From: Saprospiraceae bacterium
GTDB taxonomy: Bacteria; Bacteroidota; Bacteroidia; Chitinophagales; Saprospiraceae
Assembly (NCBI GenBank): GCA_020629715.1
Contig: JAHDCU010000001.1
Location: 372,001-436,000 of the forward strand
Length of the DNA stretch: 64,000 nt
Direction: 5' to 3'
The notes below the pieces were generated by a model that ran no database searches, was not told the origin of the DNA, and was given only the letters and a program-made list of their open reading frames with translations. Each line of letters opens with the position of its first letter. Positions within the stretch are counted from its first letter, which is position 1. Both the position numbers and the translations under genes were made by a program. Below are positions 6,602 to 51,910 of the stretch, piece after piece.

Positions 6602-6704
6602 ACTCTATTAACGATAAGCATATTTATTTCTTATTAGAAAGTATATCGTATCGAACAAAATAACTAATGGAGTACTAAGATGAGTGTAATCAAATGAAAA
6701 TACA

Positions 6705-6995: not shown

Positions 6996-7047
6996 TGGGA
7001 TCCGAGATATCAACTTCAACCCTTTTTATAATCAAATACTAATCAAA

Positions 7048-7610: not shown

Positions 7611-7706
7611 ATTCAGTAGAATCATATTGAAGATTAGAACTTCAAACCCTAACATAGAAATCAATTATTTATAAACGTCAGTCATGACACTTAAAAACTA
7701 TACAAC

Positions 7707-7871
7707 ATGTTAAGATGGATAATCACTTTTTTAGTAATCGCATTTATCGCAGCAATTTTAGGTTTCGGAGGAATAGCCGGTGCAGCAGCAGGAATAGCTA
7801 AAATTATATTTTTTGTTGCCATTGTACTCTTTGTACTTTCTCTAATCAAACGAATTGTGAGTAGAGTCTAG
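7707..7871 (+). CDS. DUF1328 family small membrane protein
   Basis: A 54-residue frame starts [16 protein letters not shown] and continues [18 protein letters not shown], ending with a second hydrophobic segment and a basic tail (I-K-R-I-V-S-R-V). This is the complete DUF1328 (YtjA-like) pattern: two membrane helices separated by a glycine/alanine turn. Family members are often found in stress or biofilm gene sets, but the biochemical role is unknown. It lies between two other small genes on the same strand. Confidence 0.85.
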
Positions 7872-7921
7872 AAATCATTTTATACTCTAACCTTTTTTTT
7901 AACTCTAAATCAAAATCAATT

Positions 7922-8500
7922 ATGAAATATTTTAAAAATATACTTCCTATATTCTTATTAGCCATAGGAATAACATCATGTGATGTACAACAAACGAAAG
8001 AAGGTGAATTACCAGACGTGGATATATCAGCAGAAGCTGGTACTTTGCCTGAATTCGATGTGGACTGGATGGATGTCAACGTCGGTACTAAAACGAAGAC
8101 AATAACAGTCCCTACAGTAGAAGTAGTCATGGAAGAAAAGACTGTGGAAGTACCTTATATAGAAACTTCATGGCCTGATGAAAAAACTAAACTTTATGAA
8201 CAAACAATTATGGTGGAGGCTGAAATCTCTAATCAAAATAAGTCACTAGAAATAGATAAAATATATGCAAAAGGTGATCGACTGATTGTGGTTTCAAGTT
8301 TAGAAACTACGGAAGAATCGTTAGGAGATAAAAGCATAAGAGTCTCGGATCAGGTAGTTATCAAAGCTCCAGATCTTACTGTAAAACACTATATAATCGG
8401 CGATAAACCGAACAGATCCTTCAACAACAACTATAGCTATATCAAAAGTAATGATGACATAGCATCAAAAATAGACGGCGCCAAAGTAATTTTTGGATAA
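7922..8500 (+). CDS. Lipoprotein of unknown function
   Basis: The 192-residue product has a signal peptide with lipobox I-T-S-C, predicting an acylated cysteine at residue 20. The mature part is acidic, with repeated short valine/threonine/glutamate strands (T-V-P-T-V-E-V-V-M-E-E-K-T-V-E-V-P) and no cysteines. I do not recognise the fold. It follows the DUF1328 gene by 50 bases and ends before a hairpin at 8525-8550. Confidence 0.65.
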   Translation: MKYFKNILPIFLLAIGITSCDVQQTKEGELPDVDISAEAGTLPEFDVDWMDVNVGTKTKTITVPTVEVVMEEKTVEVPYIETSWPDEKTKLYEQTIMVEAEISNQNKSLEIDKIYAKGDRLIVVSSLETTEESLGDKSIRVSDQVVIKAPDLTVKHYIIGDKPNRSFNNNYSYIKSNDDIASKIDGAKVIFG

Positions 8501-8524
8501 TATAAACTCCTTCAATTAAAATCT

Positions 8525-8550
8525 AAAGGCGCGGACCAAACTGCGCCTTT
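8525..8550. terminator. Hairpin, possible terminator
   Basis: AAAGGCGC (8525-8532) and GCGCCTTT (8543-8550) form a perfect 8-bp stem with a 10-base loop just after the lipoprotein gene. The downstream U-tract is short, so termination may be partial. Confidence 0.55.
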
Positions 8551-8573
8551 TCCAATAATCACAAAAAATTATA

Positions 8574-9179
8574 ATGAAACATTTACTAAATACTTTAATC
8601 ATACTATTCGGTACTACTGTTGCCTTTTCACAAAACGTAGGTGTGAAAGGTGGATGGTCACTTTCTAATCTATCATCATCTGACGGACAAATCGAAGATG
8701 TCAACGCCAGAAATGGATTCACTATCGGTGTATTCTCGAGGTACGATTACGATCTTATTGGATTTCAAGCTGAGCTTCTATATACGCAGAAAGGTAGCAG
8801 CTATGAGAGTTCGCTTTTTGATGTAGAGGTAGAAAGCAATTATCTCGAATTACCTCTAACTATGCATCTGAACCTTCTTGAACCGTTTTACATCTATGCT
8901 GGACCTCAATTTAGCTATCTGATGAACAGCCAAGTAAGATATTCTGCACTTAACGGATCAGATGTAGTTAATGATAATGATGAATCCAACTATAATCGCT
9001 TGGACGTCGGTGGTGTAGTCGGTGTAGGATTCCGATGTACTGACCATGTTGCCATAGATGCTAGGGTAAGTAAAGGTTATATAGATTTTGACGAAGATCG
9101 GACCTTTGGAGATGTTGTAGAAGAATCTCAAAATCTGAAGAATTTCAATTTTCAACTGACCACAGCAATCTCATTTTAA
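8574..9179 (+). CDS. Outer-membrane beta-barrel (porin-like) protein
   Basis: The 201-residue product has a cleavable signal peptide ending F-S-Q, then G-V-K-G-G-W-S-L-S-N and alternating amphipathic strands such as G-F-Q-A-E-L-L-Y-T-Q-K-G-S, finishing in an aromatic strand (T-T-A-I-S-F). This is the usual PorT/OMP_b-brl_2 type pattern with about eight strands. It is probably an outer-membrane protein. It has its own terminator downstream. Function beyond the fold is not evident. Confidence 0.82.
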   Translation: MKHLLNTLIILFGTTVAFSQNVGVKGGWSLSNLSSSDGQIEDVNARNGFTIGVFSRYDYDLIGFQAELLYTQKGSSYESSLFDVEVESNYLELPLTMHLNLLEPFYIYAGPQFSYLMNSQVRYSALNGSDVVNDNDESNYNRLDVGGVVGVGFRCTDHVAIDARVSKGYIDFDEDRTFGDVVEESQNLKNFNFQLTTAISF

Positions 9180-9258
9180 TCATAAATGCCATCCCAATAA
9201 GCAATTACAATCTCATGTTACATACTCCTTGTAACCATTTTAAACAAGGTTATATAGC

Positions 9259-9296
9259 AAAAAGCTATCCGGTTTTACCGTTTAGCTTTTTTTTAT
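9259..9296 (+). terminator. Rho-independent terminator
   Basis: AAAAAGCTA (9259-9267) pairs with TAGCTTTTT (9283-9291), with an inner CGGT/ACCG stem and a run of eight T residues. It lies 80 bases after the outer-membrane barrel gene. Confidence 0.8.
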
Positions 9297-9374
9297 TTTA
9301 TCCTAGATATATTAGAACAATCAGGTCAAACTGAGGTATGATAAATGAGGCATCACGATAAAAATTTAACGCTA

Positions 9375-10736
9375 ATGATATCAAGTATAAACCCCGTCAA
9401 TAATCAGAAAATTAAAACATATACACCTCATAGTAAAGAGGATATACATAGTATAATCAAGGCAAATCATGCTGCTTACTGCACATTGAGCAATAGTACT
9501 TTGGAGAGTCGTATTGCATGCATCACTAGCCTAGCCGAAAAACTAAACGATGCAAAACCTAAACTTGCAGAGCTCATGACTCTAGAGATGGGAAAAACCT
9601 TACATCAAGCTACTCAGGAGATCGAAAAATGTATATGGCTTTGCCAATACTATAATGAGCAGGCGCCTAGCCTTTTGGAAGATAAACATATCGAGACTGA
9701 TGCTCTAAAGAGTTATGTAAGCTATCGACCACTGGGTAGTATACTTATGATAATGCCATGGAATTTTCCTTTTTGGCAAGTATTTAGAGTTGCAGTACCC
9801 AATATACTTGCAGGAAATGCTTTGATACTTAAGCATGCTAGCAACGTAACAGGCTGTTCTATGGCCATTGAGGATTTGTTTTCAAGTATTGGACTACCGC
9901 CTGATTCTCTTAGAAGCGTTGTACTGCCCTCAGACCGAATAGAAGAAATCATATCGCATCGCTATATCCAAGGAGTAAGTCTGACGGGCAGCGGTCCTGC
10001 AGGCTCATCTGTAGCCAGTCTAGCTGGTAAATACATTAAAAAAACGGTACTAGAACTAGGTGGATCTGATCCTTATATCATATTACCTGACGCTGATATC
10101 GAACTAGCCGTATCTCAATGTGTAAGTTCTCGAATATTGAATGCTGGCCAGAGTTGTATAGGTGCCAAACGATTTATCATACATCAAGATATCTATGATT
10201 ACTTTTCTCAATCGTTTATTGATAAAATGGGCGATCTCATGGTAGGTGACCCTAAGACCAATGTCGATCTCGGGCCACTAGCAAGAGTAGATTTAAGAGA
10301 TGAGGTACATGATCAAGTGATGAAATGTTTACATCTTGGAGCTGAGCTAAGATTAGGTGGAAAGATTCCTGATATGGAAGGTGCTTATTATGTGCCAACT
10401 GTCCTTGAAAATATATTGCCAGGTATGCCAGGATATGATGATGAAATCTTTGGACCAGTGGCAAGTTTGATAAAAGCTTCAGACGAAGATGACGCCATCC
10501 GAATAGCCAATGACACTGCCTTTGGTCTCGGAGCTGGGATCTTTACCCAAGACCTAGAAAAAGGAGAACACATCGCTAGATACAAGCTGAACGCAGGAAG
10601 TTGCTTTGTCAATCAATATGTAAAAAGCGACCCTAGACTACCCTTTGGCGGTATTGGTATCAGTGGTTATGGAAGGGAATTATCTACAGAAGGGATGCGA
10701 GAGTTTGTGAATGTCAAAACCGTTTACATTAAATAA
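9375..10736 (+). CDS. NAD(P)-dependent aldehyde dehydrogenase, succinate-semialdehyde type
   Basis: The product (453 residues from 9375) is a complete aldehyde dehydrogenase. The active-site Glu lies in L-E-L-G-G-S-D-P, the catalytic Cys in N-A-G-Q-S-C-I-G-A, and the C-terminal E-I-F-G-P-V and P-F-G-G-I-G-I-S-G-Y-G-R-E motifs are intact. Overall it resembles the short NAD-dependent succinate-semialdehyde dehydrogenases (Sad/GabD type), which oxidise the aldehyde to succinate. Substrate choice cannot be proven here. An ATG at 9345 would add ten residues; I prefer 9375 because S-S-I-N-P-V is the usual family N-terminus. It stands alone. Confidence 0.88.
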   Translation: MISSINPVNNQKIKTYTPHSKEDIHSIIKANHAAYCTLSNSTLESRIACITSLAEKLNDAKPKLAELMTLEMGKTLHQATQEIEKCIWLCQYYNEQAPSLLEDKHIETDALKSYVSYRPLGSILMIMPWNFPFWQVFRVAVPNILAGNALILKHASNVTGCSMAIEDLFSSIGLPPDSLRSVVLPSDRIEEIISHRYIQGVSLTGSGPAGSSVASLAGKYIKKTVLELGGSDPYIILPDADIELAVSQCVSSRILNAGQSCIGAKRFIIHQDIYDYFSQSFIDKMGDLMVGDPKTNVDLGPLARVDLRDEVHDQVMKCLHLGAELRLGGKIPDMEGAYYVPTVLENILPGMPGYDDEIFGPVASLIKASDEDDAIRIANDTAFGLGAGIFTQDLEKGEHIARYKLNAGSCFVNQYVKSDPRLPFGGIGISGYGRELSTEGMREFVNVKTVYIK

Positions 10737-37930: not shown

Positions 37931-38119
37931 ATGAAAGAACTGAACGACATTCAGGAACTAGATCTGAGATTACCTAATGGTGAGCCTTTTGAGATTCCTG
38001 TACAGGGTAGCTTAGGGTTGTTAGCACTCGGGGATATTGGTTTAATGGCTTGGAGACAGAAAAAGCTTCAATTTATCAAAGCCCAACAAGGTTCAAAAAA
38101 CAACAATACGGAGAAGTAG
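37931..38119 (+). CDS. Small 62-residue protein before the sulfotransferase fusion
   Basis: The product has an acidic N-terminal half with short strands (L-D-L-R-L-P-N-G-E-P-F-E-I-P-V), a central G-S-L-G-L-L-A-L-G-D-I-G-L-M-A-W segment that could sit on a membrane, and a basic tail (W-R-Q-K-K). No tyrosine or cysteine is present. I do not recognise a family. Its stop codon is directly followed by the ATG of the large fusion gene, so they are surely co-translated. A 10-base element (AATCTGAGAA) lies just before its start and recurs before 40706. Confidence 0.65.
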   Translation: MKELNDIQELDLRLPNGEPFEIPVQGSLGLLALGDIGLMAWRQKKLQFIKAQQGSKNNNTEK

Positions 38120-40687
38120 ATGAAGGGAAACGGCAAGAATAAAGTGTTATTACTTGGCTGGGATGCAGCGGACTGGAAAGTAATCAATCCATTAGTTGAT
38201 CAAGGATTGATGCCCAATATGAAGAAGCTTATTGAAGGTGGTACTATTGCAAATTTGGCAACCTTAGACCCGCCTTATTCCCCTATGCTTTGGTCTTCGA
38301 TTGCTACTGGAAAACGTCCTTATAAACACGGTGTCTTAGGTTTTACAGAAATTACTCCAGATGGTAAGGATGTGAGGCCTGTGATGAGTATCAGTCGTAA
38401 GTGTAAGGCATTATGGAACATATTTAATCAAAATAAAATGAGATCGCATGTCGTCGGTTGGTGGCCAAGTCACCCAGCCGAGCCCATTAACGGCATTATG
38501 GTCTCTAACTTTTATCAACAACATACCGGACACATTAATCAACCATGGCCAATGCCTTCAGGTACAATACATCCTAAGGTTGAAGAAAAGCTCTATTCAT
38601 TTCTAAGAGTTCATCCTCAAGAATTAAATAGTGAACATATTTTACCCTTTATTCCTAATATGGGTAAAATTAATCAGAAAAAGGATCCTCGTGTATTCTC
38701 AGTTGCTAAAGTTACTGCACATGCTTCTTCATTACATGCAGCCTTTACTAATGCCATAAGAACTCAACCCTGGGATTTCGCCGCATTATACCTAGATGCC
38801 ATAGATCATTACTGTCATGGTTTTATGAAATATCACCCTCCAAAGAGACCTCATATCATTCAAGAAGATTATGATCTATATAAAAATGTTGTGACTGCAG
38901 GTTACCAATTCCATGATTTAATGCTTGGAAGAATCATGGAGCTTGTAGACGATCAAACAACAATACTACTTATTTCCGATCATGGTTTTCAGCCTGATCA
39001 TTTGAGGCCTGATAAAATACCAAATGAACCAGCAGGTCCTGCTTATGAACATAGTGATTACGGTATTTTAGTTGCTTATGGGCCTAATATTAAAAAAGAT
39101 AATATTTCATACGGGGCTAGTGTAATCGACATAGCACCGACTATTTTGGCACTACACTCACTTCCAATAGCGGAAGATATGGATGGTAGAGTTCTAACTA
39201 GTATTTTCGAAACACCTCCTGAAATAAAGTTGATACCCAGCTGGGAAAGCGTAAATGGAGATTCTGGACAAATTAAAAATTGGAATTCAGAGGAAAAAGA
39301 AAATACTTCTAAGGCGGTATTAAAACAACTTGAGGATCTTGGCTACATTGATTCTTTACCAAAATCACAAGAAGGTAAAATTGAAATGACCCGAAATGAA
39401 TGCAATTTCAATCTAGCAAGAGCCTATATTGATGGCAGTAAAATCGAAGAAGCAGTACCACTATTAGAACAACTTCGAAAAGTAGATCCTAGAGCAATAC
39501 GATATTCCTTTAAGCTTGCTTCATGCTACCAGATGCTAGGAAGGTTGAGTGACGCCAGAGCTATCATCGATGAAATTCGTGAGAAAGAGGTATATAATAG
39601 TCCTGCACTAGACATGATGGAAGGAAGTCTATTGTTGGGCGAAAAAAAGCCGAAATTAGCAATTGATTGTTTTAAAGCGGCCCAAGGAAAAGTCAATGCT
39701 CATCATTCAAGGATCAATTTCCAGTTCGCGAATGCATATCTAATGTTAAACAGATGGTCAGATGCCAAAGAGTATCTTAATAAAGAAATTGACATCGACT
39801 ATGATAATGCCGCGGCACATGCATTACTTGGAAGAACTTTTCTATTCGAAAATAAATATGAAGAAGCCTGTGATTCTTATCTAACGGCCATAGGTTTAGA
39901 TTTCAATAAGCACAATTATCATCATGCCTTAGGAACTGCTCTCTTTAAAATAGGTAAATATCACGAAGCAGTACATGCCCTAGAAAACAGTCTAAAACTA
40001 GCTCCCGATAATAACCCATGTAGAGAACTATTAATCAAAATCTACGGAAATCATCTTCATGATACAAAGAATTATAATCTACATCGATCAAAACTAAAAA
40101 TTCACAAGAAAGGATTAATATACGTGGTATCAGGCTTACCACGGTCCGGGACGTCTATGATGATGCAAATGCTAAAAGAAGGCGGACTTGAACTTTTTAC
40201 GGATGGTAAAAGAGAGACTGATGAAAACAATCCAAAGGGTTACTATGAACATGAGGCTGTTAAATCCTTAAGTAGAAATAGAAAATGGTTGATACAGGCG
40301 GAAGGAAAGGGAATAAAAATTATTTCACATTTACTGAAACACCTACCCTCTAATTTCGACTATAAGGTAATATTTATGGAACGCAATATTTCTGAAGTTT
40401 TAGCATCTCAAGGAAAAATGCTAAGTAGACTTGAGAAGAAAGTAGATAATTCTGTCTATCCGACTGCCTTAGAAAAGAAGTATCGAGAAGATATAAACGA
40501 TACCAAAGAATTTTTAGCTAATCAGCATAACTTTAAAGTTTTGTATATAAATCATCACGATATCTTAAAGAGCCCATTTTCTTCAGCTCTTGAAGTTGCT
40601 GAATTTGTAGATCAAAACTTAATAGTAGAAAAAATGTCAAACATCGTAGACCCTGCTTTACATAGAGAAAAGATGGTCTTAAACTAA
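38120..40687 (+). CDS. Alkaline-phosphatase-superfamily / TPR / sulfotransferase fusion
   Basis: The 855-residue product has no signal peptide. Residues 5-400 are a type I phosphodiesterase-like domain (L-L-G-W-D-A-A-D-W near 10, W-S-S-I-A-T-G-K-R-P-Y-K-H-G, L-L-I-S-D-H-G-F-Q-P-D-H, H-S-D-Y-G-I-L). Residues about 425-645 form TPR-like helices. Residues about 665-855 are a PAPS-dependent sulfotransferase (S-G-L-P-R-S-G-T-S-M near 673, V-I-F-M-E-R-N-I-S-E near 753). One protein thus joins phosphoester cleavage and sulfate transfer through a protein-binding arm. The target is unknown; the next gene encodes a secreted protein. Confidence 0.88.
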   Translation: MKGNGKNKVLLLGWDAADWKVINPLVDQGLMPNMKKLIEGGTIANLATLDPPYSPMLWSSIATGKRPYKHGVLGFTEITPDGKDVRPVMSISRKCKALWNIFNQNKMRSHVVGWWPSHPAEPINGIMVSNFYQQHTGHINQPWPMPSGTIHPKVEEKLYSFLRVHPQELNSEHILPFIPNMGKINQKKDPRVFSVAKVTAHASSLHAAFTNAIRTQPWDFAALYLDAIDHYCHGFMKYHPPKRPHIIQEDYDLYKNVVTAGYQFHDLMLGRIMELVDDQTTILLISDHGFQPDHLRPDKIPNEPAGPAYEHSDYGILVAYGPNIKKDNISYGASVIDIAPTILALHSLPIAEDMDGRVLTSIFETPPEIKLIPSWESVNGDSGQIKNWNSEEKENTSKAVLKQLEDLGYIDSLPKSQEGKIEMTRNECNFNLARAYIDGSKIEEAVPLLEQLRKVDPRAIRYSFKLASCYQMLGRLSDARAIIDEIREKEVYNSPALDMMEGSLLLGEKKPKLAIDCFKAAQGKVNAHHSRINFQFANAYLMLNRWSDAKEYLNKEIDIDYDNAAAHALLGRTFLFENKYEEACDSYLTAIGLDFNKHNYHHALGTALFKIGKYHEAVHALENSLKLAPDNNPCRELLIKIYGNHLHDTKNYNLHRSKLKIHKKGLIYVVSGLPRSGTSMMMQMLKEGGLELFTDGKRETDENNPKGYYEHEAVKSLSRNRKWLIQAEGKGIKIISHLLKHLPSNFDYKVIFMERNISEVLASQGKMLSRLEKKVDNSVYPTALEKKYREDINDTKEFLANQHNFKVLYINHHDILKSPFSSALEVAEFVDQNLIVEKMSNIVDPALHREKMVLN

Positions 40688-40705
40688 ATCACATAATCTG
40701 AGAAT

Positions 40706-41884
40706 ATGAAAAAAATTTACAAACAAAAAGGCAACAAAGTCAGCCTTTCAGATCGAATTAAAGCTTATAAAAAAGAGACTGTCTCCATTGGAGTGTTACC
40801 CTCTAGAAAAATACAAAGCAAAGCTTTAGCGGCAATGGGATTTTTAGCGGCATCTGCAATTGTTGGACCTGAACTACAGGCGCAATGCACCTTTACAGGA
40901 ACTGGTGCAACCTTTCCTGTTGATTTTGATGGTGATGGAGTCAGCGATTTTTACTTTTTAATGAATCAAGTAAACGGTACAGGAACAAATAGGATTTATG
41001 TTGTAGGGGAGAACGGTAATGGCGTTGTTGGTACCAATGCTCCCTTTTTTAGTGCTGTTTATCCAGGTACAGCATGTGGTCCTTGTTATCAAGCTGGATT
41101 TGGAGTACTTTATTCAAATTATGGTACAGGCTACGGTAATTTTGCACCTGGAACTACCGGATTTTTTCCTATAGTCTACAATGGAGGAGCTTCAACTGGC
41201 TTTATTTCTATCACTGTAAATTCATTGACAAGTATTACAATAAACAGTGTATTCAATGAACTTATAAATGGAGAAGTTCCTACTCAAACAGGAGGAGTAA
41301 ACGGTGCATGTAATGCAATTATTCTTCCTGTAGAATTCGCAAGTATAAAAATTGAAACTGTAGAAAAAAAGCATAAAATTATGTGGTCTACAGCATCCGA
41401 AATCAATAATAAAGGTTTTGTAGTAGAAAGATCAATGGATGGATCTAAGTTTGAAGAGATTGGATGGATAGAAGGAGAAGGAAATAGTTTTAGTATTAAA
41501 GAATACAGCTTCGTAGATGATAAAGCAAAGTCAAATATCTTATACTACTACAGACTCAAGCAAATGGACTTCGATGGCAACTATGAGTATAGTGATATCG
41601 TATCTGCCAAGTATGAAGATAAGAATGCACTGTCACTAGGAGACTTTGCTCCTAATCCTGCAAGAGCAATTGCGACCCTAGATGTCAATATAGGCGTTGA
41701 ATCTAATGCACAAGTCATTCTTTTTGATCAATTGGGCAACGAAATACTAAATAAAACCCAAACTTTATTTGCTGGAAGCAATACTCTAAACATCGAATTA
41801 AATGATGTACCTCCTGCTACCTATTTTGCTAAAGTGATTATTGGTAACGAGATCAACTACAAAAGATTAGTTGTAGTTGACTAG
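40706..41884 (+). CDS. Secreted T9SS protein with extended leader
   Basis: The 392-residue product has an unusually long leader: about 40 polar, basic residues before a hydrophobic stretch (A-A-M-G-F-L-A-A-S-A-I-V-G) that ends E-L-Q-A-Q. After it comes a tyrosine- and glycine-rich domain with an FG-GAP-like D-F-D-G-D-G-V-S-D, a fibronectin-like domain (W-S-T-A-S-E-I-N-N-K-G-F near residue 227), and a T9SS sorting tail (F-A-P-N-P-A-R-A). It starts 18 bases after the sulfotransferase fusion and is a natural candidate for its substrate. Confidence 0.82.
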   Translation: MKKIYKQKGNKVSLSDRIKAYKKETVSIGVLPSRKIQSKALAAMGFLAASAIVGPELQAQCTFTGTGATFPVDFDGDGVSDFYFLMNQVNGTGTNRIYVVGENGNGVVGTNAPFFSAVYPGTACGPCYQAGFGVLYSNYGTGYGNFAPGTTGFFPIVYNGGASTGFISITVNSLTSITINSVFNELINGEVPTQTGGVNGACNAIILPVEFASIKIETVEKKHKIMWSTASEINNKGFVVERSMDGSKFEEIGWIEGEGNSFSIKEYSFVDDKAKSNILYYYRLKQMDFDGNYEYSDIVSAKYEDKNALSLGDFAPNPARAIATLDVNIGVESNAQVILFDQLGNEILNKTQTLFAGSNTLNIELNDVPPATYFAKVIIGNEINYKRLVVVD

Positions 41885-41913
41885 TAGATTTTAACTATAA
41901 ACTACATAATAAC

Positions 41914-41950
41914 AAAAGCCTGGTTGAAATATCTCAATCAGGCTTTTTTA
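41914..41950 (+). terminator. Rho-independent terminator
   Basis: AAAAGCCTGGTTGA (41914-41927) pairs with TCAATCAGGCTTTT (41934-41947), with one G-U pair, followed by a T-run. The T-run continues into the end of priA on the other strand, so it may serve both genes. Confidence 0.85.
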
Positions 41951-44401
41951 TTGCGGATCTACATCAATATTAACCCTTACCGACTTGAGTCCGTTGGCAT
42001 TTCTTAGCTCTGATCTTAGTTGTAAAACCATCTTTTTGATTTCTACGATCTTTTGAAGATTTCTCTCCATTTTGATGGTGATGGTCTGCAGATATTGATT
42101 TCGTATCCTACCGATACCAGGCTCGGAGGGACCGATGATACGTTTCCCTAAATGCTTTTTCAGCTCATGTGCCATGACCTGTGCAGCTTCGGCTACTGTT
42201 CTTGCATTTTTATGCTTTAATGTAAGCCTTATCATTCGATAGAATGGTGGATATACAAACTGCTTCCGTTCGATGAGTTCTCTTTCGAATAATCTGTGAT
42301 AATTGTTATCCACGATATCAAGTATCACGGGATGATCGGGCTGAAAAGTTTGGATGATTACTTTCCCTTGCTTTTGCCGACGTCCTGCCCTACCCGCCAC
42401 TTGCGTCAGCAGCTGAAATGTACGTTCATGTGCTCTAAAGTCAGGAAACTGTAATAGCAGATCCGCATTGAGGATACCGACTACCGCAATATTATCAAAG
42501 TCTAACCCCTTGGTAATCATTTGAGTACCTACAAGTATTTGAATTTTTTGATGCTCAAAGTCAGATAATATCTGTTCGTATTGATTTTTCGTTTTTGCCG
42601 TATCAAAGTCTAATCTACCTACTTGTACCCCTTCAAATAGTTCTTGGATAACGTCTTCAATCTTTTCGGTACCTACTCCTTTTTCGATGAGATGATCATT
42701 GCCACATGCAGGACAGGTTTTTGGAATCTTAGTCCTATAATTACAATAATGACAGCGCATCTCTTGAAAATGCATATGCTTGGTTAAAGTCACATCACAA
42801 TTCATACACTCACTATTCCATGCACATACAGGGCATGAGATTGTAGGTACATATCCACGACGATTCTGAAAAATGAGTACTTGTTCTTTTTTAGCTAATG
42901 CTTGCTCGATAGCTTCGATGAGATCACTGCTAAAATGATCCTTGATCCTATTGGTCTTATATTGATACTTTAAGTCTACTAGTTGAATTTCTGGTAAGGC
43001 TACATTTCCATAACGCTCATGCATTTCTATGAGCTTATATTTATCGTTGAGTGTATTGCTATAACTTTCAATAGCGGGAGTAGCAGTACCCATTATGACA
43101 TGAGCTCCAGTAAGCCCAGCTAGATATACGCTGGCATCGCGGCCGTTATATCGCGGAGCTGGGTCATTTTGCTTATACGACGGATCATGCTCTTCATCTA
43201 CAATGATGAGTCCAAGATCTGAAAAAGGTAAAAAGACACTCGATCGAGCTCCTAGAATGATCTTTTTACCGGCTAATGCTGCTTTCCATAATTCTACTCT
43301 TTCATTAGCATTGATTTTACTGTGAAAGACACCGACTTGATCTCCAAATACTTGCACGATCCGCTTTACTATCTGCGTAGCTAGCGCTATCTCAGGCAAC
43401 AAAAATAGTGATTGCTTGCCTTGAGCTAATGCATTTTTTATCAACTCGATATACACCCGTGTTTTACCACTCCCTGTGACTCCATGCAAGAGCACATGTT
43501 TTTGTTCATTAAATGCCAATTGAATTTGCAGTACAGCATTTTGTTGTTCAACGCTAAGTGAAGGTATTGGTGATAGCTCCATTTTATCAGCAACTATCCT
43601 ACTCACTTCAAACTTCTGCTCTTCAAAGATCTCTTTTTTTACCAGCGCTGCTATATGACTACTATTGATCTCTGCCAAGTCATAAATAGATTTTTTATCT
43701 ACCCAAGGATACTCTTTGGCTAGCTTTTGATATGCCAATATTGCCCGAGTTTGTGGATCTGATCTTTTTGTTTTTTCAAGCGCTTCGATTAAGCGATTTT
43801 TATCTTCATTGTAGTACGGAGTAAGGTTGATATATGATTCTAGTTTAGGTTTGAAACGTTGCACTAGTTCCTCTCTAACAGTTATTGCTCCCAGATCTAA
43901 TAGCGATCGTATAATCGGATAAATTGATTTTCGATTGAGTATATCTTTAGCCTCACCAATAGATAACTCATGTTGTATCTCTAGTGCTTCGGTCAGTAAA
44001 TATTCTTGATCATTTAAATCATGAACATCAAACTGAAAGTCTTGATTGAGAATTAGCTTTGTTTCAGAATTAAGCTTTAATCCTGCGGGTAGAGCCACAT
44101 TCATGACTTCTCCTATACTACAGCAATAATAAGATGACAACCAATACCAGAATTCCAATTGAGTCTTAGTTATAATTGGATGCTTGTCAATGATAGATAT
44201 GAGATCTCTCGCCTTATAGTTGAGTGGAGCGATATTTGAAATTTCAACTACTATCGCCGAGTATAATTTATTGCGAAGAGGTACCTCAACCCTGATACCA
44301 AACTGCATATGAGGAATCATCTCTTCAGGTACCTTGTAACTATACTGCTTAGGTACCGCAAGTGGTAAGATTACTGAAGCATATGTATGAGACTCAGACA
44401 T
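41948..44401 (-). CDS. priA: Primosomal protein N' (PriA helicase)
   Basis: The 817-residue product is a complete PriA. It has an N-terminal DNA-binding domain, Walker A G-V-T-G-S-G-K-T near residue 303, D-E-E-H box near 400, and an eight-cysteine zinc region (C-P-V-C, C-x2-C, C-H-Y-C, C-P-A-C near residues 525-560) inside the second helicase lobe. It restarts replication at stalled forks. It is followed upstream by an HDAC-like gene on the same strand. Confidence 0.96.
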   Translation of the reverse strand: MSESHTYASVILPLAVPKQYSYKVPEEMIPHMQFGIRVEVPLRNKLYSAIVVEISNIAPLNYKARDLISIIDKHPIITKTQLEFWYWLSSYYCCSIGEVMNVALPAGLKLNSETKLILNQDFQFDVHDLNDQEYLLTEALEIQHELSIGEAKDILNRKSIYPIIRSLLDLGAITVREELVQRFKPKLESYINLTPYYNEDKNRLIEALEKTKRSDPQTRAILAYQKLAKEYPWVDKKSIYDLAEINSSHIAALVKKEIFEEQKFEVSRIVADKMELSPIPSLSVEQQNAVLQIQLAFNEQKHVLLHGVTGSGKTRVYIELIKNALAQGKQSLFLLPEIALATQIVKRIVQVFGDQVGVFHSKINANERVELWKAALAGKKIILGARSSVFLPFSDLGLIIVDEEHDPSYKQNDPAPRYNGRDASVYLAGLTGAHVIMGTATPAIESYSNTLNDKYKLIEMHERYGNVALPEIQLVDLKYQYKTNRIKDHFSSDLIEAIEQALAKKEQVLIFQNRRGYVPTISCPVCAWNSECMNCDVTLTKHMHFQEMRCHYCNYRTKIPKTCPACGNDHLIEKGVGTEKIEDVIQELFEGVQVGRLDFDTAKTKNQYEQILSDFEHQKIQILVGTQMITKGLDFDNIAVVGILNADLLLQFPDFRAHERTFQLLTQVAGRAGRRQKQGKVIIQTFQPDHPVILDIVDNNYHRLFERELIERKQFVYPPFYRMIRLTLKHKNARTVAEAAQVMAHELKKHLGKRIIGPSEPGIGRIRNQYLQTITIKMERNLQKIVEIKKMVLQLRSELRNANGLKSVRVNIDVDPQ

Positions 44402-45388: not shown

Positions 45389-48300
45389 TTATCGCAGTAT
45401 AGTGATATCTCCTGTGAGAATTTCTAGCGCTGAACCAATCGATCTGTTATAATTGATCACGTAGACATATACTCCCTGTGACACTTCTTCTCCTTTAAAA
45501 GTACCATCCCAAAAAGGATAATTTTCAGAAAGTACACCTGGAGCACCGCGATAGACCAGCTCTCCCCATCGATCATAAATATTAAATTCCGCGATCAGTA
45601 TATCTTCATTACTAAAGATCTCAAATGTATTATTTGCAGCATCTCCATTTGGGCTAAAGACATTAGGGATATAGATACTTGGCCCCACATCCAAAACGGG
45701 TACTGATAGCATCGCATCAATCATACAATCTTGTCCGTAGAATACTAGGGCTGTATAATTGGTTGTTATACTGGGACTGGCAATGGGATCTGGGCAATCA
45801 TTACATGAAAGACCATCTGTTGGAGTCCAGAGTATTTCTGTGTAGCTACCTGATATATTGAGGTCCAACTGATAAGACTGACCCTCAGTTATAACCTCAG
45901 ATGTGACATTGAGAGATATTGTTTCTATCGTGACCTCTACATTAATGATACTATCACAACCTGTAGAGGCTCCATTTTCTAAAATGATCTGATCTGTAGT
46001 GTTATTGGCATCAAAAGTCTCACCAGCAATCATAATTTCATCTCCATCACATATCATTTCAGATATAAAAGATTCAGCATCTTGCTCAAAGGATAAGTTC
46101 ACCACAATTATACTATCACAACCCGACGAGGCTGCTCCAAACAACGTATCCTGACCTGTAGGATTATTGATATCGTATATAGTGCCTAGTATATCTATAG
46201 ACTGATCAGCACAGAGTAGATCATCCAATATAGCGTTACTCGAGCTGTCGAAACTGATATCTACATTGATCAGACTATCACAACCATTGGCCGATTGTCC
46301 TTCTAGTACAACGACTCCCGTGGTGTTGCCTATATCAAATACCTCTCCACCGATATTGACCGATGTGATATCGCAATATAGGTCATCTAAATCATTTTCT
46401 CCAAACGATAAGAATTGTAAATCTACAGTAAACATCGTATCACATCCTGACAGATTGGGTACTAATTCCATACCACTAGGATTATTGATGTCAAAGGTTT
46501 GACCATTTACTAAAATAGATTCATCAGGGCACAAGACATCCATGATCATTGCTTCGATGACCTGAGCATCAGGAGCAAAATTGATAGTTTCAAAAACGTC
46601 TGGATTATCACATAACGCATTGGAAACACCAACAATATCGACATCCCACATTATATCTGCAGCCCCCAAAACTATAGACCCATCGAATACTAAATTTCCA
46701 TTGTCATTACATACTTCGTATTGTTGAGACATCACCACAGGATTAAGCGTAATACTCAATATATCTCCTAATTCGGATCTAAATTCTATATCTACAGTGA
46801 CGCCTGGGCCTCCACTTATTTCAAGAGTAAAAAATCCACAAGACCCTGTACACAATTGATTATCCAAATCTCCAAAACCTGCACTTGGAGGAGATACAAT
46901 GTCAAGCATGATAGTAGAGCTATCTTTAGGACACTCTATGCCGTCACCTACGTTATACTGTATCATAATCTCTTCACCCGCTGCATCAGCCTGAGCGGTA
47001 TAAGTAGAATTTAAAATCTGTCCAGTACCAGTTATAATACTGAATACACCTGGCATATCTGCTCCAATCAATAGATCAGTAAGTAATATATTTTCTCCCT
47101 CACAAACCAAAATGCCAACAACATCAGTGCCCGCAGAAACATTATCTACAATAGAAATAGCAATATCAGCGGTATCTGGAGTACATACCAAACAATCTTC
47201 ACATACAACATATTGGTAGTTTAAGGTATTGTTACTCATCCCATTCGTTTCTACTTCTGTATCTGTAATCTGAGCACCTGTTGCAGCATCAATGAATATG
47301 CCAGGCAAATCTCCATTAACTTCTGTTTGAAGATCGACTATAGCACCCTCACATACTGAAAGAGATAGATCAGATCCTGCGTCAAGTTCTGGGAAAATAG
47401 TCAACTCAACCATAGATGATGACTCTGGGCATAGAGATGTTCCTGCAATTGTGTACGAAAATTGAAAAGTTTCATTTTGATTTACTGCAGAAATGTCAAG
47501 TGAAGTAGAATCACTCAAGTCGAGCGAAATCGATCCAGCAACTTGCGACCAAACGCCACCCGCATCATGTATCCCTATCAATCCGTCAAGATTAATGAGA
47601 CTATCAGAAGCACAAAACTCAAGGATGGCATCAGATCCTATCAACGGTGCTTGAGCCCACTGAATATCAAGCTGAGCAGTATCACTACAGCCTGCGGATG
47701 TTATGGTATATTCGAAACTCAGATCTGTTCCAGACAGACTGGTAAGATCAATTTGGCTAGAAGGATTAATGATTATAGATTCATTAGATAATTCATTCCA
47801 TGAGCCTCCAGCAGCTCCACTAGCCGAGATATAGTCATTAAGGATCAGTTCATCTTGATAAGCTAAACATGGACTGATGATACTATCCTGACCTGCATCT
47901 GGTGTATCAGTAATATTAATATTGATAGCTAATTCATCTGTACAAGTACCATTATCCGCATATAGGTAAATGATTTGACTAGACGTGATGATATCTCCAA
48001 CATTGTAAGTATCGCCCATACCACCGCTTTCACTATAGTAGCCCGAAATTCCACTTACTCCAACGCCCAGAGGTGCCTCGATCATGTAAAAATCACAAGA
48101 CGTGGTATCCGCTACGTTTAATAATTGCGGTTGTTCTTGAATGGTAACACTTATAGTAGTTTGTTGAGGATCACATCCTACGGCATTCACCAAATAATCA
48201 AATGAGTAGATACCCGGGCCTGCAACCGCAGCATCGAATGTATTTCCCGAAAGCGCCGCTCCAGCATTTCCAATATTATCATTAAATATTCCTCCGAGTG

Positions 48301-51300
48301 AAGCTCCTGATTCTAGTAAGCTACTTAAATTGATTATTTCGATTGAACAAGTATCTACAACCTGGGCAGCTCCAGCATTGAGTTCTGTTTCTACATTCAA
48401 AGTAATGGTCGCAGTATCATTCTCACATGGAGCATCGTTTTCAATGATATACTGATATATTTCAGCTGTCCCAACTGCTCCGGTTATCGTGATCATTGTA
48501 TTGACACTATTTTCCTGATCATCTTCAAAAAAACCTCCGTTATCCTGATTATCCAGAAGCGTTGATAGATCTATCGTAGCACCAGCACATACATCTGTTT
48601 CAATATCGTCTCCAGCTGTCAATTCATTATTGATAGTAATATCAAAGGTGGGGTTATCTTGACAATCACCATGACTAGCATCAAAAATATAAAGAGTCAT
48701 ATCTGAGCTTATGATATCACCTTCATTAAATTGGATTCCTGCTCCTAATGGTCCAGTATAGTATAATGCATTACTAGATGTAGATCCTACGACTTGAATA
48801 CTAGGTAAAATATATTCTCCACAAACAGACTGGTTTCCAGGGTTTTGGAAAGTCAAAGGTACTTCTAGCGAAAGCGAAATCTCAACTATATCGGATTCAC
48901 AGCTACCATTGAATACCGAGGCATATACTGTATTTGTTTGGCTTGCATAACTATTAGGATTATTAATCTGTGAAGATCCATCACTAGATTCAAAATAGCT
49001 AACACTGCTTCCTGATCCATTATTAACTTGTCCATCCAAAGTAGTCAAATCAAATATTTCTACACCATTATTATCTACATCACAGACCTCTAACGCAGCA
49101 GGTACTGCAGATGGTTGAGTATTAAGCTGTAGTTGGACCGACTCCGGATTGAGCACCTGCCCCATGCATCCGCTATCATCACTTATCCAATTGATGGTCA
49201 ATAATCCGCTTGTAAATCCTGCGGCAATCAATAATTCTGAAATCGTAATTGTATTACTATTATCATCAAAATCAGCACTCAATCCAAAACCATCAATACA
49301 AAGAGTAACAAATGGACTACTGGGATCTATGGTCATAATGCCCGAATCCGTAAAAAAGGATGATGAAAGCTCAAAATCCATTTGATAGCTTGTCGAACTT
49401 CCTCCGAAATTAATTGGGATATCTACACATTGATCAATACATATTCCATATGGGCCAGGATCAAAAGATACAGTAGGACCAGGATCAATATTTGGGTCAT
49501 TTATATTTAATAATGCTTCACAACCAGAACCGTCATCCGCTACTACCCATAGATCATCTATTGCATTTAGATCTACATTACTAGGATTGGCAATCAATAC
49601 ACCGCCAGCATCAGGATCACCATCATACCACATAATTGTACTTCCTGGCAATATGCTATTATCAAAAGCAGTAAGATTGAAATTAGTCACATTATCCGCA
49701 CAATCATCAGGAATATTAGGATCAACTAAGTTTGGTGAATTTTCAATGGTAAGCATCGCAGTATTTACTCCAATATTAGCTGCGCATCCATTAGCGTCTA
49801 CAGCACTCAATAGCGTTACGCTATAAGTACCTGTAACGAATGCTGGAATCACCAAAGTAGGTGGATTCGCAATAAAATTTGGAAATGCTCCTTGAGAGCA
49901 TACCCCTAGTTCCTCACCGACATTGAGTGCAAAAGCGGGAAGATTAAAAGTACCGAAAGGTGCTGGAAGATTTATTGATAAGTCAAGAGTAAATGGTTCT
50001 GCTCCGTTGGAAAAAATAAAAGAAAAACCTTCATTTGCAAAGGTACATTCCCCTACACATAATGATACATCACCACCAAAGTTCACATCGCCTCCGACGC
50101 TATTGTTTACTGTAACTAGCACCGATGAACTACAATTATTCCCGTCGGTAACGAGAGCATATAATTGGGCTATTGACGATAGATTTACATTGCTATGAGG
50201 ATTGATTTCTATACCACCATTATATGGATCACCATCATACCAAGTTACATTTTCACTATTATTGACCGCTGACTCAAAGTCATTTAAATTAATCAATGAA
50301 GGAGCACAATAGTCAATATTTGGGTCATTGGCCGTTGGATCAGGTTCTACTGTAACGGTGAATTGTTCTTCTGATGTACATCCATTTCCATCGTCAACTT
50401 GTACCCATAATTCAATTGCACCAGTGGATAAATCTACAGATGTAGTATTAATAATGGGGCTACCTGTTGTTGACGGTTGTCCATCATACCACGTCACTGT
50501 TCCCGATGAGTTTACGTTAGAACTCTGAGAGCTTAAGTCATAAGAGCTAAGATTACTAGAGCAATCAGCTATAGGAAACTGAAATATAGAGGGGTTTCCT
50601 GTAATACTAACTGTAAACCGGACCTCTGTACTACATCCATCGCTACTTACAACTTCTACCCAAAAATCAAGTCCGCCACCAAATAAATTGACATCAGTAG
50701 GATCAGCAATAGGGCTTCCCCCTGCAGTAGGTTGACCATCATACCATATTACAGTACCCGATGTACTTACATTATTGTTTTCCGTAGTAAGGTCGTAATT
50801 TAGTAGTGTATTTTGACATCCATCTATGGTGATTGCATTTGCGTTAGGAGCCGCATTTATTGTTGGATTAATCTGTTGTTCTGAATCGCATCCTCCGTCG
50901 GATACCAATACCCAAAGATCTACAGGTGGATCTATATCAGCATCTGTAGGATCAGTAATTATTGATCCACCAGCTGAAGGTTGTCCATTATACCAGCTTA
51001 CAACTACAGCTCCACTACTATTCACAGCATTGGTATAGCTCGTCAGATCAACATTATCATTTGCACAATAGGCAATATTGGGATCATTAATTGGTGGGGA
51101 CGTTTGCTCTACTAAGACTACTGACTCTGTGGCAGTACAGTCATTTCTATCTGTTACTGTAAAAACATATTCACCTTCACTAAATGTGCCCGCTATTAAG
51201 GTTGTCGTTGTAGTAGTCGCAACCACCGAATTGACGCCCGTAGGATCAAATATCCAAGAGTATGGTCCATCTAGCGTAGTATTTGCAACAAGGTCAACAT

Positions 51301-51910
51301 CTTCGCCCGGACAGTAAGTTACATCTGGTTGAGCTTCTACACTAAAATTCGTATTTTCCCAGCATAACAAAACAATATTAGAAAACTCTATTGTTTCTCC
51401 GTTGCCCCAAGTCTGTGTAGTGATTTGGAAGCTCGCATCTGTCCCCGTACCAGAACAAAAAGTTTCTTGTATTGTACCGTTGGTATCGGATTGATTATTG
51501 TCACCAACAAGAAAAGTATATTCCTCCACTCCATCAATCATAAACTCTAGATAGAGATAATCCCAACAGTTACAACATCCACCAGCAAGTGGATTATTTG
51601 GGTCTCCAGCACAATCGCCAAAACTACCACATTCATCAGCTGATTCTAAATTACCACTACCTATCCACTCGTCACCGCTATATTGTAAGGAAATCGTATA
51701 ACTAGAACAATTACTTATATTAAACGGGCCGAAATTAGTAACTATGGCTTGATCACATGGTGCTACATTGCAAGGATTTTGATTAGAATCGCAATTAGGT
51801 TGACCTTCATTAGTATAAGTATTAGAGTCGTTTAAGAGGACAACTGGAAATTGAGCGAATACATTGAGGCTTAAAAAAAAACTAAGTAGACATAGAAGTA
51901 AAAACCTCAT
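45389..51910 (-). CDS. Giant secreted T9SS repeat protein with gliding-type C-terminal domain
   Basis: The 2173-residue product has a signal peptide (ending V-F-A-Q). A cysteine-rich N-terminal domain (about 20-190) is followed by five related modules with W-Y-D-G-Q/D-P-x-x-G-G (about residues 300-760), then many beta-sandwich-like repeats with the signature 'V-C-x-G-x-x-V-D-L', four 45-residue modules ending G-C-D-S-I-I-N-V (about 1820-1985), and a type B C-terminal T9SS domain (N-V-F-S-P-N-G-D, Y-D-R-W-G-E, W-D-G-T-F) from about 2083. It is likely a surface adhesin or matrix protein. Base use is more repetitive than in its neighbours. Confidence 0.93.
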   Translation of the reverse strand: MRFLLLCLLSFFLSLNVFAQFPVVLLNDSNTYTNEGQPNCDSNQNPCNVAPCDQAIVTNFGPFNISNCSSYTISLQYSGDEWIGSGNLESADECGSFGDCAGDPNNPLAGGCCNCWDYLYLEFMIDGVEEYTFLVGDNNQSDTNGTIQETFCSGTGTDASFQITTQTWGNGETIEFSNIVLLCWENTNFSVEAQPDVTYCPGEDVDLVANTTLDGPYSWIFDPTGVNSVVATTTTTTLIAGTFSEGEYVFTVTDRNDCTATESVVLVEQTSPPINDPNIAYCANDNVDLTSYTNAVNSSGAVVVSWYNGQPSAGGSIITDPTDADIDPPVDLWVLVSDGGCDSEQQINPTINAAPNANAITIDGCQNTLLNYDLTTENNNVSTSGTVIWYDGQPTAGGSPIADPTDVNLFGGGLDFWVEVVSSDGCSTEVRFTVSITGNPSIFQFPIADCSSNLSSYDLSSQSSNVNSSGTVTWYDGQPSTTGSPIINTTSVDLSTGAIELWVQVDDGNGCTSEEQFTVTVEPDPTANDPNIDYCAPSLINLNDFESAVNNSENVTWYDGDPYNGGIEINPHSNVNLSSIAQLYALVTDGNNCSSSVLVTVNNSVGGDVNFGGDVSLCVGECTFANEGFSFIFSNGAEPFTLDLSINLPAPFGTFNLPAFALNVGEELGVCSQGAFPNFIANPPTLVIPAFVTGTYSVTLLSAVDANGCAANIGVNTAMLTIENSPNLVDPNIPDDCADNVTNFNLTAFDNSILPGSTIMWYDGDPDAGGVLIANPSNVDLNAIDDLWVVADDGSGCEALLNINDPNIDPGPTVSFDPGPYGICIDQCVDIPINFGGSSTSYQMDFELSSSFFTDSGIMTIDPSSPFVTLCIDGFGLSADFDDNSNTITISELLIAAGFTSGLLTINWISDDSGCMGQVLNPESVQLQLNTQPSAVPAALEVCDVDNNGVEIFDLTTLDGQVNNGSGSSVSYFESSDGSSQINNPNSYASQTNTVYASVFNGSCESDIVEISLSLEVPLTFQNPGNQSVCGEYILPSIQVVGSTSSNALYYTGPLGAGIQFNEGDIISSDMTLYIFDASHGDCQDNPTFDITINNELTAGDDIETDVCAGATIDLSTLLDNQDNGGFFEDDQENSVNTMITITGAVGTAEIYQYIIENDAPCENDTATITLNVETELNAGAAQVVDTCSIEIINLSSLLESGASLGGIFNDNIGNAGAALSGNTFDAAVAGPGIYSFDYLVNAVGCDPQQTTISVTIQEQPQLLNVADTTSCDFYMIEAPLGVGVSGISGYYSESGGMGDTYNVGDIITSSQIIYLYADNGTCTDELAININITDTPDAGQDSIISPCLAYQDELILNDYISASGAAGGSWNELSNESIIINPSSQIDLTSLSGTDLSFEYTITSAGCSDTAQLDIQWAQAPLIGSDAILEFCASDSLINLDGLIGIHDAGGVWSQVAGSISLDLSDSTSLDISAVNQNETFQFSYTIAGTSLCPESSSMVELTIFPELDAGSDLSLSVCEGAIVDLQTEVNGDLPGIFIDAATGAQITDTEVETNGMSNNTLNYQYVVCEDCLVCTPDTADIAISIVDNVSAGTDVVGILVCEGENILLTDLLIGADMPGVFSIITGTGQILNSTYTAQADAAGEEIMIQYNVGDGIECPKDSSTIMLDIVSPPSAGFGDLDNQLCTGSCGFFTLEISGGPGVTVDIEFRSELGDILSITLNPVVMSQQYEVCNDNGNLVFDGSIVLGAADIMWDVDIVGVSNALCDNPDVFETINFAPDAQVIEAMIMDVLCPDESILVNGQTFDINNPSGMELVPNLSGCDTMFTVDLQFLSFGENDLDDLYCDITSVNIGGEVFDIGNTTGVVVLEGQSANGCDSLINVDISFDSSSNAILDDLLCADQSIDILGTIYDINNPTGQDTLFGAASSGCDSIIVVNLSFEQDAESFISEMICDGDEIMIAGETFDANNTTDQIILENGASTGCDSIINVEVTIETISLNVTSEVITEGQSYQLDLNISGSYTEILWTPTDGLSCNDCPDPIASPSITTNYTALVFYGQDCMIDAMLSVPVLDVGPSIYIPNVFSPNGDAANNTFEIFSNEDILIAEFNIYDRWGELVYRGAPGVLSENYPFWDGTFKGEEVSQGVYVYVINYNRSIGSALEILTGDITILR

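Follow-up and report, generated by a model that had tools for sequence, protein, structure and literature searches.

Three consecutive genes in a 64,000-nucleotide stretch of a Saprospiraceae bacterium genome (the window, by which the whole stretch is meant) encode a small protein, a fusion of an NPP-type phosphodiesterase, tetratricopeptide repeats (TPRs) and a sulfotransferase, and an exported protein, here called the client, that bears a long leader and a type IX secretion system (T9SS) tail. The recurrence of this set in distant bacteria suggests an undescribed system that marks particular proteins chemically before export. Judged from the sequences, the chances are about even that the three genes form a module which modifies a dedicated, leader-marked class of surface proteins before export. 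A client role of the secreted protein and a partner role of the small protein are supported by genomic association, and sulfation of the client by the fusion, or of a lipid or glycan attached to the client, is plausible. The set is beyond chance because full-length homologues exist and because the fusion is accompanied across genomes by both the small protein and the client class. A preliminary description of the window, which had the fusion modifying the secreted protein or a lipid or glycan linked to it, with the small protein as adaptor, is thus partly supported.

Results

The three genes are present as open reading frames (ORFs) of 62, 855 and 392 amino acids (Table 1) where the preliminary description had placed them, and the junctions that it read were confirmed: the TAG of the small gene directly abuts the ATG of the fusion gene, and 18 nt separate the fusion and client genes. 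The proposal had been staked on finding the genes side by side in other genomes, and this was found: small protein, fusion and leader-bearing secreted protein adjoin one another elsewhere and co-occur genome-wide.

The analysis covered 100 related genomes, 395 genomes of the phylum and 274 genomes of the class of genome G100, together with a broader contig collection. A fusion was counted only if the match covered the phosphodiesterase domain, the raw tally of 80 of the 100 relatives including TPR-only matches. Sixteen of the 100 relatives carry the fusion (20 genes), two of them (G070 and G085) as contig-end pieces only. Full-length copies share 41–55% identity with the window fusion and the second copies in G061 and G081 31–33%; named records, the nearest being mainly metagenome-assembled genomes (MAGs) of Saprospiraceae, share 35–55%. 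The fusion is absent from both sampled congeners, G001 (100% complete) and G002 (65% complete). In the broader collection, six exact peptide patterns retrieved at least 23 fusion loci, with hosts in Saprospiraceae/Saprospirales/Chitinophagales, Thiotrichaceae, Halobeggiatoa, Parabeggiatoa, Thiomargarita and Thioploca, as well as a Melioribacteraceae MAG, a Nitrospirae MAG and MAGs labelled Bacteroidetes, Hyphomicrobiales and Proteobacteria (such labels being fallible). Duplicate records (L053 = L032, L072 = L034, L045 = L067) were set aside.

The small protein follows the fusion closely. Its core lies just upstream of, and in the same direction as, 32 of the 41 distinct fusion genes with the 5′ end in hand (duplicates dropped). 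For L036 and L040 (both G099) and for L037 (G073), the small gene sits on a different contig; neither L044 nor the second L067 copy has one adjacent, while the partner copy of each does; L048 has a weak form only (E = 9e-5); the gene lies ~1.6 kb upstream in L056 and elsewhere in the genome for L110; and none was found in the genome of L063. A profile of 30 homologues (A1, with one row, L035, omitted), run against the 100 relatives at E≤0.01, matched 17 genomes, namely all 16 fusion genomes and one of the 84 others (G044), where the match is weak (E = 1e-3) and falls inside a 559-aa frame. Four genomes that gave no A1 row (G065, G073, G085 and G099) were each found to have the small protein. 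Among the 395 phylum genomes three matched at E = 1e-3, that is, G000, G169 (fusion adjacent) and G347; among the 274 genomes of G100's class two matched at E = 1e-4, G100 itself and G605, in the latter at the PEP-CTERM tail of a 410-aa secreted protein.

Clients were recognized by their leaders. By hand count, 21 of the 41 fusions have, no farther than ~3 kb away, an exported protein with a visible leader that bears a tyrosine; no client was noticed at 15 others, some of them close to contig ends, and the client next to the L057 fusion is cut by a contig end. The leaders were aligned as a short type (A4, 15 rows) and a long type (A5, 12 rows including the window client), leaving outside the clients of L071, L057 and L110, the reverse-transcriptase proteins described below and one of three L033 paralogues. 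The sole invariant column in A4 and in A5, 27 rows together, is a tyrosine beside or upstream of the hydrophobic segment. The leader, noted in the preliminary description only as long, spans residues 1–39 of the window client, and the conserved tyrosine lies within it. As control, 78 n-regions of at least 10 residues were taken from the same loci under equal rules (from heuristic ORFs, some of them not real genes), while 26 of the 27 leaders could be scored, one giving no hydrophobic segment by the heuristic. Tyrosine up to two residues into the hydrophobic segment was found in 26 of 26 leaders versus 34 of 78 controls, and hydrophobic-x-x-Tyr with the same margin in 25 of 26 versus 12 of 78; with a strict boundary, the figures were 24 of 26 versus 33 of 78 and 22 of 26 versus 11 of 78, respectively.

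As A4 spans leader, signal peptide and first mature residues, it tests the client class and not the leader alone. In the 100 relatives it matched 45 places in 11 of the 16 fusion genomes and none in the 84 others; many of these places sit on contigs other than that of the fusion, for example nine in G070, which is the source of no A4 row. A5 matched G000, G018, G051 and G054 (E = 1e-12 or lower) and, at E = 0.009, the non-fusion genome G035. The first three add to those found by A4, giving clients in 14 of the 16 fusion genomes, with G081 and G085 unmatched. Among the 395 phylum genomes A4 had one match, G418, in the post-signal part only of a protein with an ordinary-looking signal peptide, in a genome without the fusion.

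At the client C-terminus, TIGR04183 (30.2 bits; cut-off 23) and PF18962 (29.6 bits; cut-off 27) identify a type A sorting domain, confirming the T9SS cargo of the preliminary description. Its tyrosine-rich secreted domain was not upheld: the domain is glycine-rich (Gly 18%), with tyrosine at 5.6% versus 4.8% in the rest of the protein and a local tyrosine cluster, and tyrosine makes up 1.9–4.6% of six aligned homologues. A tyrosine-rich domain is not supported as a conserved sulfation target.

Sorting tails differ among clients. Those of the window type end in T9SS domains, as do most of the scanned Bacteroidota clients, and G099 has a leader-bearing client with an IPTL-CTERM tail. In the Nitrospirota locus L063, the fusion is followed by a 160-aa gene with weak acetyltransferase similarity only, a client with an IPTL-CTERM tail (31.5 bits; cut-off 20.5), exosortase H (91.6 bits; cut-off 86) and an XrtH-associated protein (XrtH_assoc, 48.5 bits; cut-off 35). 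With T9SS and IPTL-CTERM tails both in use among clients, the module goes with surface proteins rather than with a single secretion system. At L110 in Halobeggiatoa, five tandem secreted proteins with PEP-CTERM-like tails (LPAEL.MLNLLGLGA.GLAAFRRRRDK) precede a second fusion. At E = 0.01, the small-protein profile matched in that genome its own small gene and four of the five tandem clients and nothing else, and profile–profile comparison gave a probability of 94.7%. Fragments of the fusion 5′ end (residues 7–29 and 7–57) lie between the tandem genes at L110:3656-3724 and 8888-9040, as if the cassette had been duplicated.

That resemblance extends to the small protein itself, whose PEP-CTERM-like core was not in the preliminary description. 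Homologues share P..(E)GSLGLLALG..GL.AWR..R, and only G26, L30, L31, G34, W41 and R42 are invariant in the 30 rows of A1. Against NCBIfam, 10 of 30 gave sub-threshold matches to XDP1 (cut-off 125 bits; best E = 0.0012) and 7 of 30 to PFE-CTERM, as did 6 of 30 against the Pfam PEP-CTERM family (best E = 0.068), with no PEP-CTERM profile over its cut-off among the 30. The core is internal with no hydrophobic segment before it, which is not the PEP-CTERM layout of signal peptide plus C-terminal motif. A RaxX-like sulfated product was rejected as the leading idea, as no Tyr, Ser or Thr is invariant in the 30 homologues; from this and from the lack of a visible signal peptide, docking is inferred for the small protein in place of a role as product. 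One ORF, L113:3560-4513, starts as the N-terminal half of the small protein and runs into a secreted protein with an IPTL-CTERM-like end, and is a natural chimera or a recombination product.

Pfam models above cut-off cover the fusion at residues 9–292 (PF01663; 93.4 bits versus a cut-off of 23), at ~430–640 (TPRs) and from 669 (Sulfotransfer_3, 28.2 bits, cut-off 27; Sulfotransfer_1, 26.5 bits, cut-off 22), and both enzymes have their expected catalytic residues, which bears out the fusion first described. The protein has no signal peptide in its sequence. An AlphaFold2 model (mean pLDDT 86.1) places the N-terminal domain near NPP/ENPP enzymes (6ael, Z 27.5, 2.9 Å over 288 residues; Xac NPP 7n1s, Z 26.6, 2.7 Å over 272), among them the choline-lipid hydrolases ENPP6/7, and the TPR part near designed TPRs and the superhelix of O-GlcNAc transferase (OGT) and SPINDLY. 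The third domain was modelled separately (pLDDT 86.9); its seven top rows by Z are tyrosylprotein sulfotransferases (TPSTs) of human and tick (12.9–13.6; best 5wrj, 3.0 Å over 165 residues, Z 13.6; TPST identity 14–17%), and 3-O-sulfotransferases and Stf0 (1tex, Z 11.2) are further neighbours. By its model this domain is a sulfotransferase; the fold is not decisive for TPST kinship.

Metal and nucleophile residues expected of the phosphodiesterase, whose roles we take to be those in the NPP family, are D15, S54, D229, H233, D287, H288 and H311. The sulfotransferase has a 5′-PSB-like SGLPRSGTS and a 3′-PSB-like R755/S763, the motifs being, as we take them, P-R/K-S-G-T-T/S and R...S, respectively, in enzymes that use 3′-phosphoadenosine-5′-phosphosulfate (PAPS). 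Seven phosphodiesterase and seven PAPS-motif residues were checked in an alignment of 22 fusions (A2) plus 46 added ORFs, among which most A2 genes recur and partial genes lack some positions. Both sets are intact in the full-length fusions checked, bar L061 (S676T), the L067 copies and L044/L047. Outside the fusions, the stand-alone sulfotransferase of L050 has A at S676, and the frame-broken L073 has one aberrant residue at the break.

The L067 and L044/L047 exceptions are reciprocal. L067 holds two adjacent copies, of which one (5437-7971) has lost all seven phosphodiesterase residues and kept the sulfotransferase, and the other (7980-10550) has kept the phosphodiesterase and lost the sulfotransferase motif. 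On two contigs of G061, L047 has likewise lost the phosphodiesterase residues and kept the sulfotransferase, and L044 has kept the phosphodiesterase with a diverged sulfotransferase (S763N, a partial loss on that side). The two splits may be one event, L067 being a record of G081 and G081 and G061 belonging to one family (f2). In L071, phosphodiesterase-TPR and sulfotransferase are two abutting ORFs, either a true split or an assembly frameshift. Active-site loss of this reciprocal kind in copy pairs argues for a need for both activities, which could if necessary be met in trans; from the sequences, neither appears dispensable.

A sulfatase role for the phosphodiesterase was also considered. 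The sulfatase model PF00884 scored 24.2 bits on the window fusion, just under its cut-off of 25, and 31.8 bits, over it, on the second Halobeggiatoa fusion; C/S-x-P-x-R, which we take to be the sulfatase signature, is absent from the site, which reads S54-P-M-L-W. With the signature missing and the profile result mixed, this candidate is retained only inside the writer/eraser alternative discussed below. Distant phosphodiesterase relatives occur on plasmids, the ten listed of 55 being haloarchaeal 'alkaline phosphatase family' genes of 24–28% identity; two of their neighbourhoods were read and show no shared theme, and a search of phage sequences for the phosphodiesterase gave no match.

Table 1. 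Positions of the cassette, its parts and associated features (window coordinates unless a locus is named).
Feature	Position	Strand	Basis
AATCTGAGAA, 10-mer immediately 5′ of the small gene start codon	37921..37930	+	sequence reading
Small-protein gene	37931..38119	+	ORF, 62 aa; no visible signal peptide; fusion partner by upstream homologues and profile A1
Conserved core of small protein, residues 23-42	37997..38056	+	profile A1 alignment
Fusion gene	38120..40687	+	ORF, 855 aa; NPP-type phosphodiesterase, TPR, sulfotransferase (Pfam, AlphaFold2 model)
NPP/ENPP-fold alkaline-phosphatase-superfamily domain, residues ~5-366	38132..39217	+	fold match and residue conservation
TPR-type helical repeat, residues ~417-661	39368..40102	+	Pfam and model fold match
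PAPS-type sulfotransferase domain, residues ~664-850	40109..40669	+	Pfam, motif conservation, model fold
AATCTGAGAA, second copy, one base ahead of client ATG	40695..40704	+	sequence reading
Client gene	40706..41884	+	ORF, 392 aa; exported protein with type IX secretion tail
Long cytoplasmic leader of client, residues 1-39	40706..40822	+	A5 alignment, hydropathy heuristic
Codon of leader Tyr21	40766..40768	+	sole invariant column of A5
Hydrophobic signal segment of client, ending ...LQAQ	40823..40885	+	A5 alignment, hydropathy heuristic
Por_Secre_tail / TIGR04183 type IX sorting domain, residues 316-390	41651..41875	+	profile matches
Terminator-type hairpin at end of unit, ahead of convergent gene 41948-44401	41914..41947	+	folding energy
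Reverse-transcriptase-led proteins adjoining a fusion	L059:11095-14757, L060:10962-12635, L062:10762-13182	L060 (-)	these three adjoin the fusion
Reverse-transcriptase-led proteins	L119:5942-7462, L120:201-1718, L121:5001-6533		tblastn similarity to L060

The unit ends in a hairpin 3′ of the client gene (−19.9 kcal/mol for 41908-41952, z −7.1). A simple terminator scan found no plus-strand terminator between the three genes and also missed this hairpin, and promoter-like sites were no more numerous than in shuffled sequence. Overall GC is equal (fusion 0.37, client 0.36, window 0.36), and third-position GC is 0.28 in the fusion and 0.24 in the client, below the 0.36 and 0.52 of two neighbouring genes taken for comparison; composition points neither way. 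The genome of the window (4.13 Mb) holds a single fusion copy. On the minus strand at 45389-51910 lies a 2173-aa ORF with, by eye, a signal-like start, many repeats and a gliding-type C-terminus.

Other neighbourhoods show further proteins. In giant sulfur bacteria, proteins with an N-terminal reverse transcriptase run into a hydrophobic segment and a secreted-looking domain. RVT_1 matched in L059 and L060, and a group II reverse-transcriptase profile in L060 (E = 4e-34); the L062 protein has no Pfam match and was assigned by tblastn similarity to L060; those of L120 and L121 have, by eye, IPTL/PEP-CTERM-like tails. Phage-tail-collar-type proteins stand beside the module in L034, L038, L056, L065 and L118 (PF07484 confirmed in L118 only, the rest by eye), and a spermidine-synthase-like protein (PF01564) in L118, with a look-alike in L038. 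The fusion at L055:6475-9639 has a fourth, C-terminal domain, methyltransferase-like by eye; in L050 and L051 the same domain is joined to stand-alone sulfotransferases (46–49% identity). No recurring glycosyltransferase or carrier gene was noticed near the fusions in ORF lists read by eye, most neighbours being without a family-model scan.

Discussion

Under the module that we favour at about even chances, the client precursor would be recognized through its leader in the cytoplasm, by the TPR groove and/or the small protein, which, with its PEP-CTERM-like core, would serve as a docking adaptor joining enzyme and precursor at the membrane. The sulfotransferase would transfer sulfate from PAPS, most likely to the client, at the leader tyrosine or another site. 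The NPP domain might carry out a coupled phosphodiester or pyrophosphate step, such as clearing of PAPS/PAP-type nucleotides or trimming of the acceptor. The client would then exit by Sec and be handled by the surface-sorting system of the lineage (T9SS tail or IPTL-CTERM tail); Sec export followed by sorting is established for T9SS and exosortase clients generally. Sulfation is plausible because the PAPS motifs are conserved, because the fold is near protein-tyrosine and other sulfotransferases and because an APS kinase was matched in every one of the 16 fusion genomes (E = 1.5e-56 or better), with which they can, by sequence, make PAPS. The leader tyrosine may be an acceptor or a recognition residue. 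Its probable removal by cleavage speaks for recognition, or else for a transient mark, and it may be a recognition residue rather than an acceptor.

A broader version, which we consider unlikely, is a cross-phylum, sulfation-based licensing of export, where a fused writer/processing enzyme would read a tyrosine-bearing extended leader, with the small protein as a PEP-CTERM-like docking mimic, and mark precursors before Sec regardless of sorting route. We know of no leader-directed sulfation system.

A number of observations weigh against the modification module and its sulfation chemistry. Several Thiotrichales fusion loci have no adjoining client, and in three of them (L059, L060 and L062) a reverse-transcriptase-led protein takes its place; of the five Halobeggiatoa clients at L110, two lack a tyrosine ahead of the hydrophobic segment and one ORF lacks a signal segment. 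The small-protein profile found nothing in the Nitrospirota genome of L063, and a clear homologue (L108:1468-1701) is present in the Bacteroidota genome G347, which has no fusion at E = 1e-10. The leader tyrosine lies in the part that signal peptidase should remove and has no acidic context, which tyrosylprotein sulfotransferases usually prefer. The polyketide-pathway sulfotransferases 4gox (Z 12.9) and 4gbm (Z 12.7) are less than 1 Z below the top TPST row, Foldseek ranks the glycopeptide sulfotransferase Teg12 first and TPST2 fourth, and in a sequence-profile search of the PDB cytosolic sulfotransferases come first (E = 1e-4), with TPSTs only at E ~0.2. APS kinase is matched in 68 of the 84 non-fusion genomes as well (84 of 100 overall) and is not discriminating. 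Finally, the Fisher p-values for co-occurrence with the fusion in the 100 relatives, 1e-17 for the small protein and 3e-11 for A4, overstate independence, as A1, A4 and A5 were built partly from searched genomes and the genomes are related. The informative part of the client co-occurrence is the zero in 84 together with the unlinked paralogues.

It is possible, if rather unlikely, that the fusion acts instead on a carrier lipid or glycan by which these surface proteins are anchored or decorated, with its enzymes working in the cytoplasm and the leader just bringing the client. Glycan and small-molecule sulfotransferases (Teg12, 3-O-sulfotransferases, Stf0) are among the fold neighbours, as are the ENPP6/7 lipid hydrolases on the NPP side, and T9SS cargo can be attached to glycolipids, according to two reports (PMC7468200, PMC8545088). 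Yet what recurs beside the fusion is the client class, with no recurring glycosyltransferase or carrier gene noticed by eye; sorting tails that differ among clients lead one to expect no common anchor lipid; and the top rows by Z are protein-tyrosine sulfotransferases.

An export switch, by which the two domains of the chain would sulfate and desulfate the leader tyrosine (writer and eraser) and so hold or release precursors at the membrane, seems improbable. It would account for an invariant tyrosine near the signal segment, for a TPST-like fold and for the reciprocal decay, which shows both activities kept together; PF00884 comes just under its cut-off in the window and over it in Halobeggiatoa, and an NPP-type enzyme with promiscuous sulfatase activity has been reported. 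In sequence, however, the site is without the presumed signature, and no acidic residues surround the tyrosine.

Quite improbable is a fusion whose enzyme domains do not act on the client, the protein serving instead to chaperone or regulate client export in the cytoplasm or to produce a small sulfated metabolite or signal. The OGT/SPINDLY-like superhelix could simply hold precursors, and some loci have no adjacent client, but catalytic sets that are complete save for the reciprocal pairs and one S-to-T change in L061 argue for catalysis in a shared role. That the genes are neighbours by chance, or co-travel on a patchy island without joint function, is scarcely credible: the spread is patchy, with both sampled congeners lacking the fusion (one 65% complete), and one locus holds gene-duplication debris, yet unlinked client genes still track the fusion (none of 84 without it), the 16 fusion genomes all have the small protein and the association reaches across several phyla.

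The module resembles, on the one hand, a protein-modifying transferase with a TPR reader such as OGT and, on the other, RaxST beside an export client, and is a member of neither. OGT and SPINDLY also join a TPR superhelix to a protein-modifying transferase, with other transferase chemistry and no phosphodiesterase; we know of no client leader for them. RaxST is a stand-alone enzyme, whereas the sulfotransferase here is fused to phosphodiesterase and TPR. The two systems share a sulfotransferase gene beside a small precursor and export genes, and in a report on raxX-raxSTAB of Xanthomonas, the RaxX precursor is tyrosine-sulfated (PMC6637879). Unlike RaxX, the small protein lacks an invariant Tyr, Ser or Thr, and the large surface proteins that serve as clients have T9SS or IPTL-CTERM tails. 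TPST1/2, which are eukaryotic Golgi enzymes acting on acidic motifs, are the top-Z solved folds for the sulfotransferase domain, but identity is low, other sulfotransferases lie within Z 1 and they are not first in Foldseek. The phosphodiesterase shares fold and expected metal/nucleophile positions with ENPP and Xac NPP, from which it differs in lacking a signal peptide, in being joined to TPR and sulfotransferase and in having Ser at the nucleophile position, where NPPs have Thr. Likeness to PEP-CTERM/exosortase systems lies in the small-protein core, the IPTL-CTERM clients and the XrtH beside one fusion; in contrast, the small protein has no signal peptide and a core that is not terminal, and Bacteroidota clients are mostly T9SS-tailed. 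In YSIRK-type and other extended signal peptides, as in the client leaders, a conserved motif with a tyrosine comes before the hydrophobic segment; the client leaders differ in being linked to an enzyme; profile scans of the clients tested matched none of the described extended-signal families. No description of the fusion or the module was found in searches of open-licence PMC full text.

To our knowledge very few cases of bacterial protein sulfation are known. It is usually the secretion machinery by itself that reads sorting signals; a leader-reading enzyme that works independently of the later route would, if true, add a new layer of control over which proteins arrive at the cell surface. 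It would also assign a function to a recurrent enzyme fusion of environmental bacteria, giant sulfur bacteria included, and the signature of small-protein core, fusion and leader tyrosine makes clients predictable from sequence.

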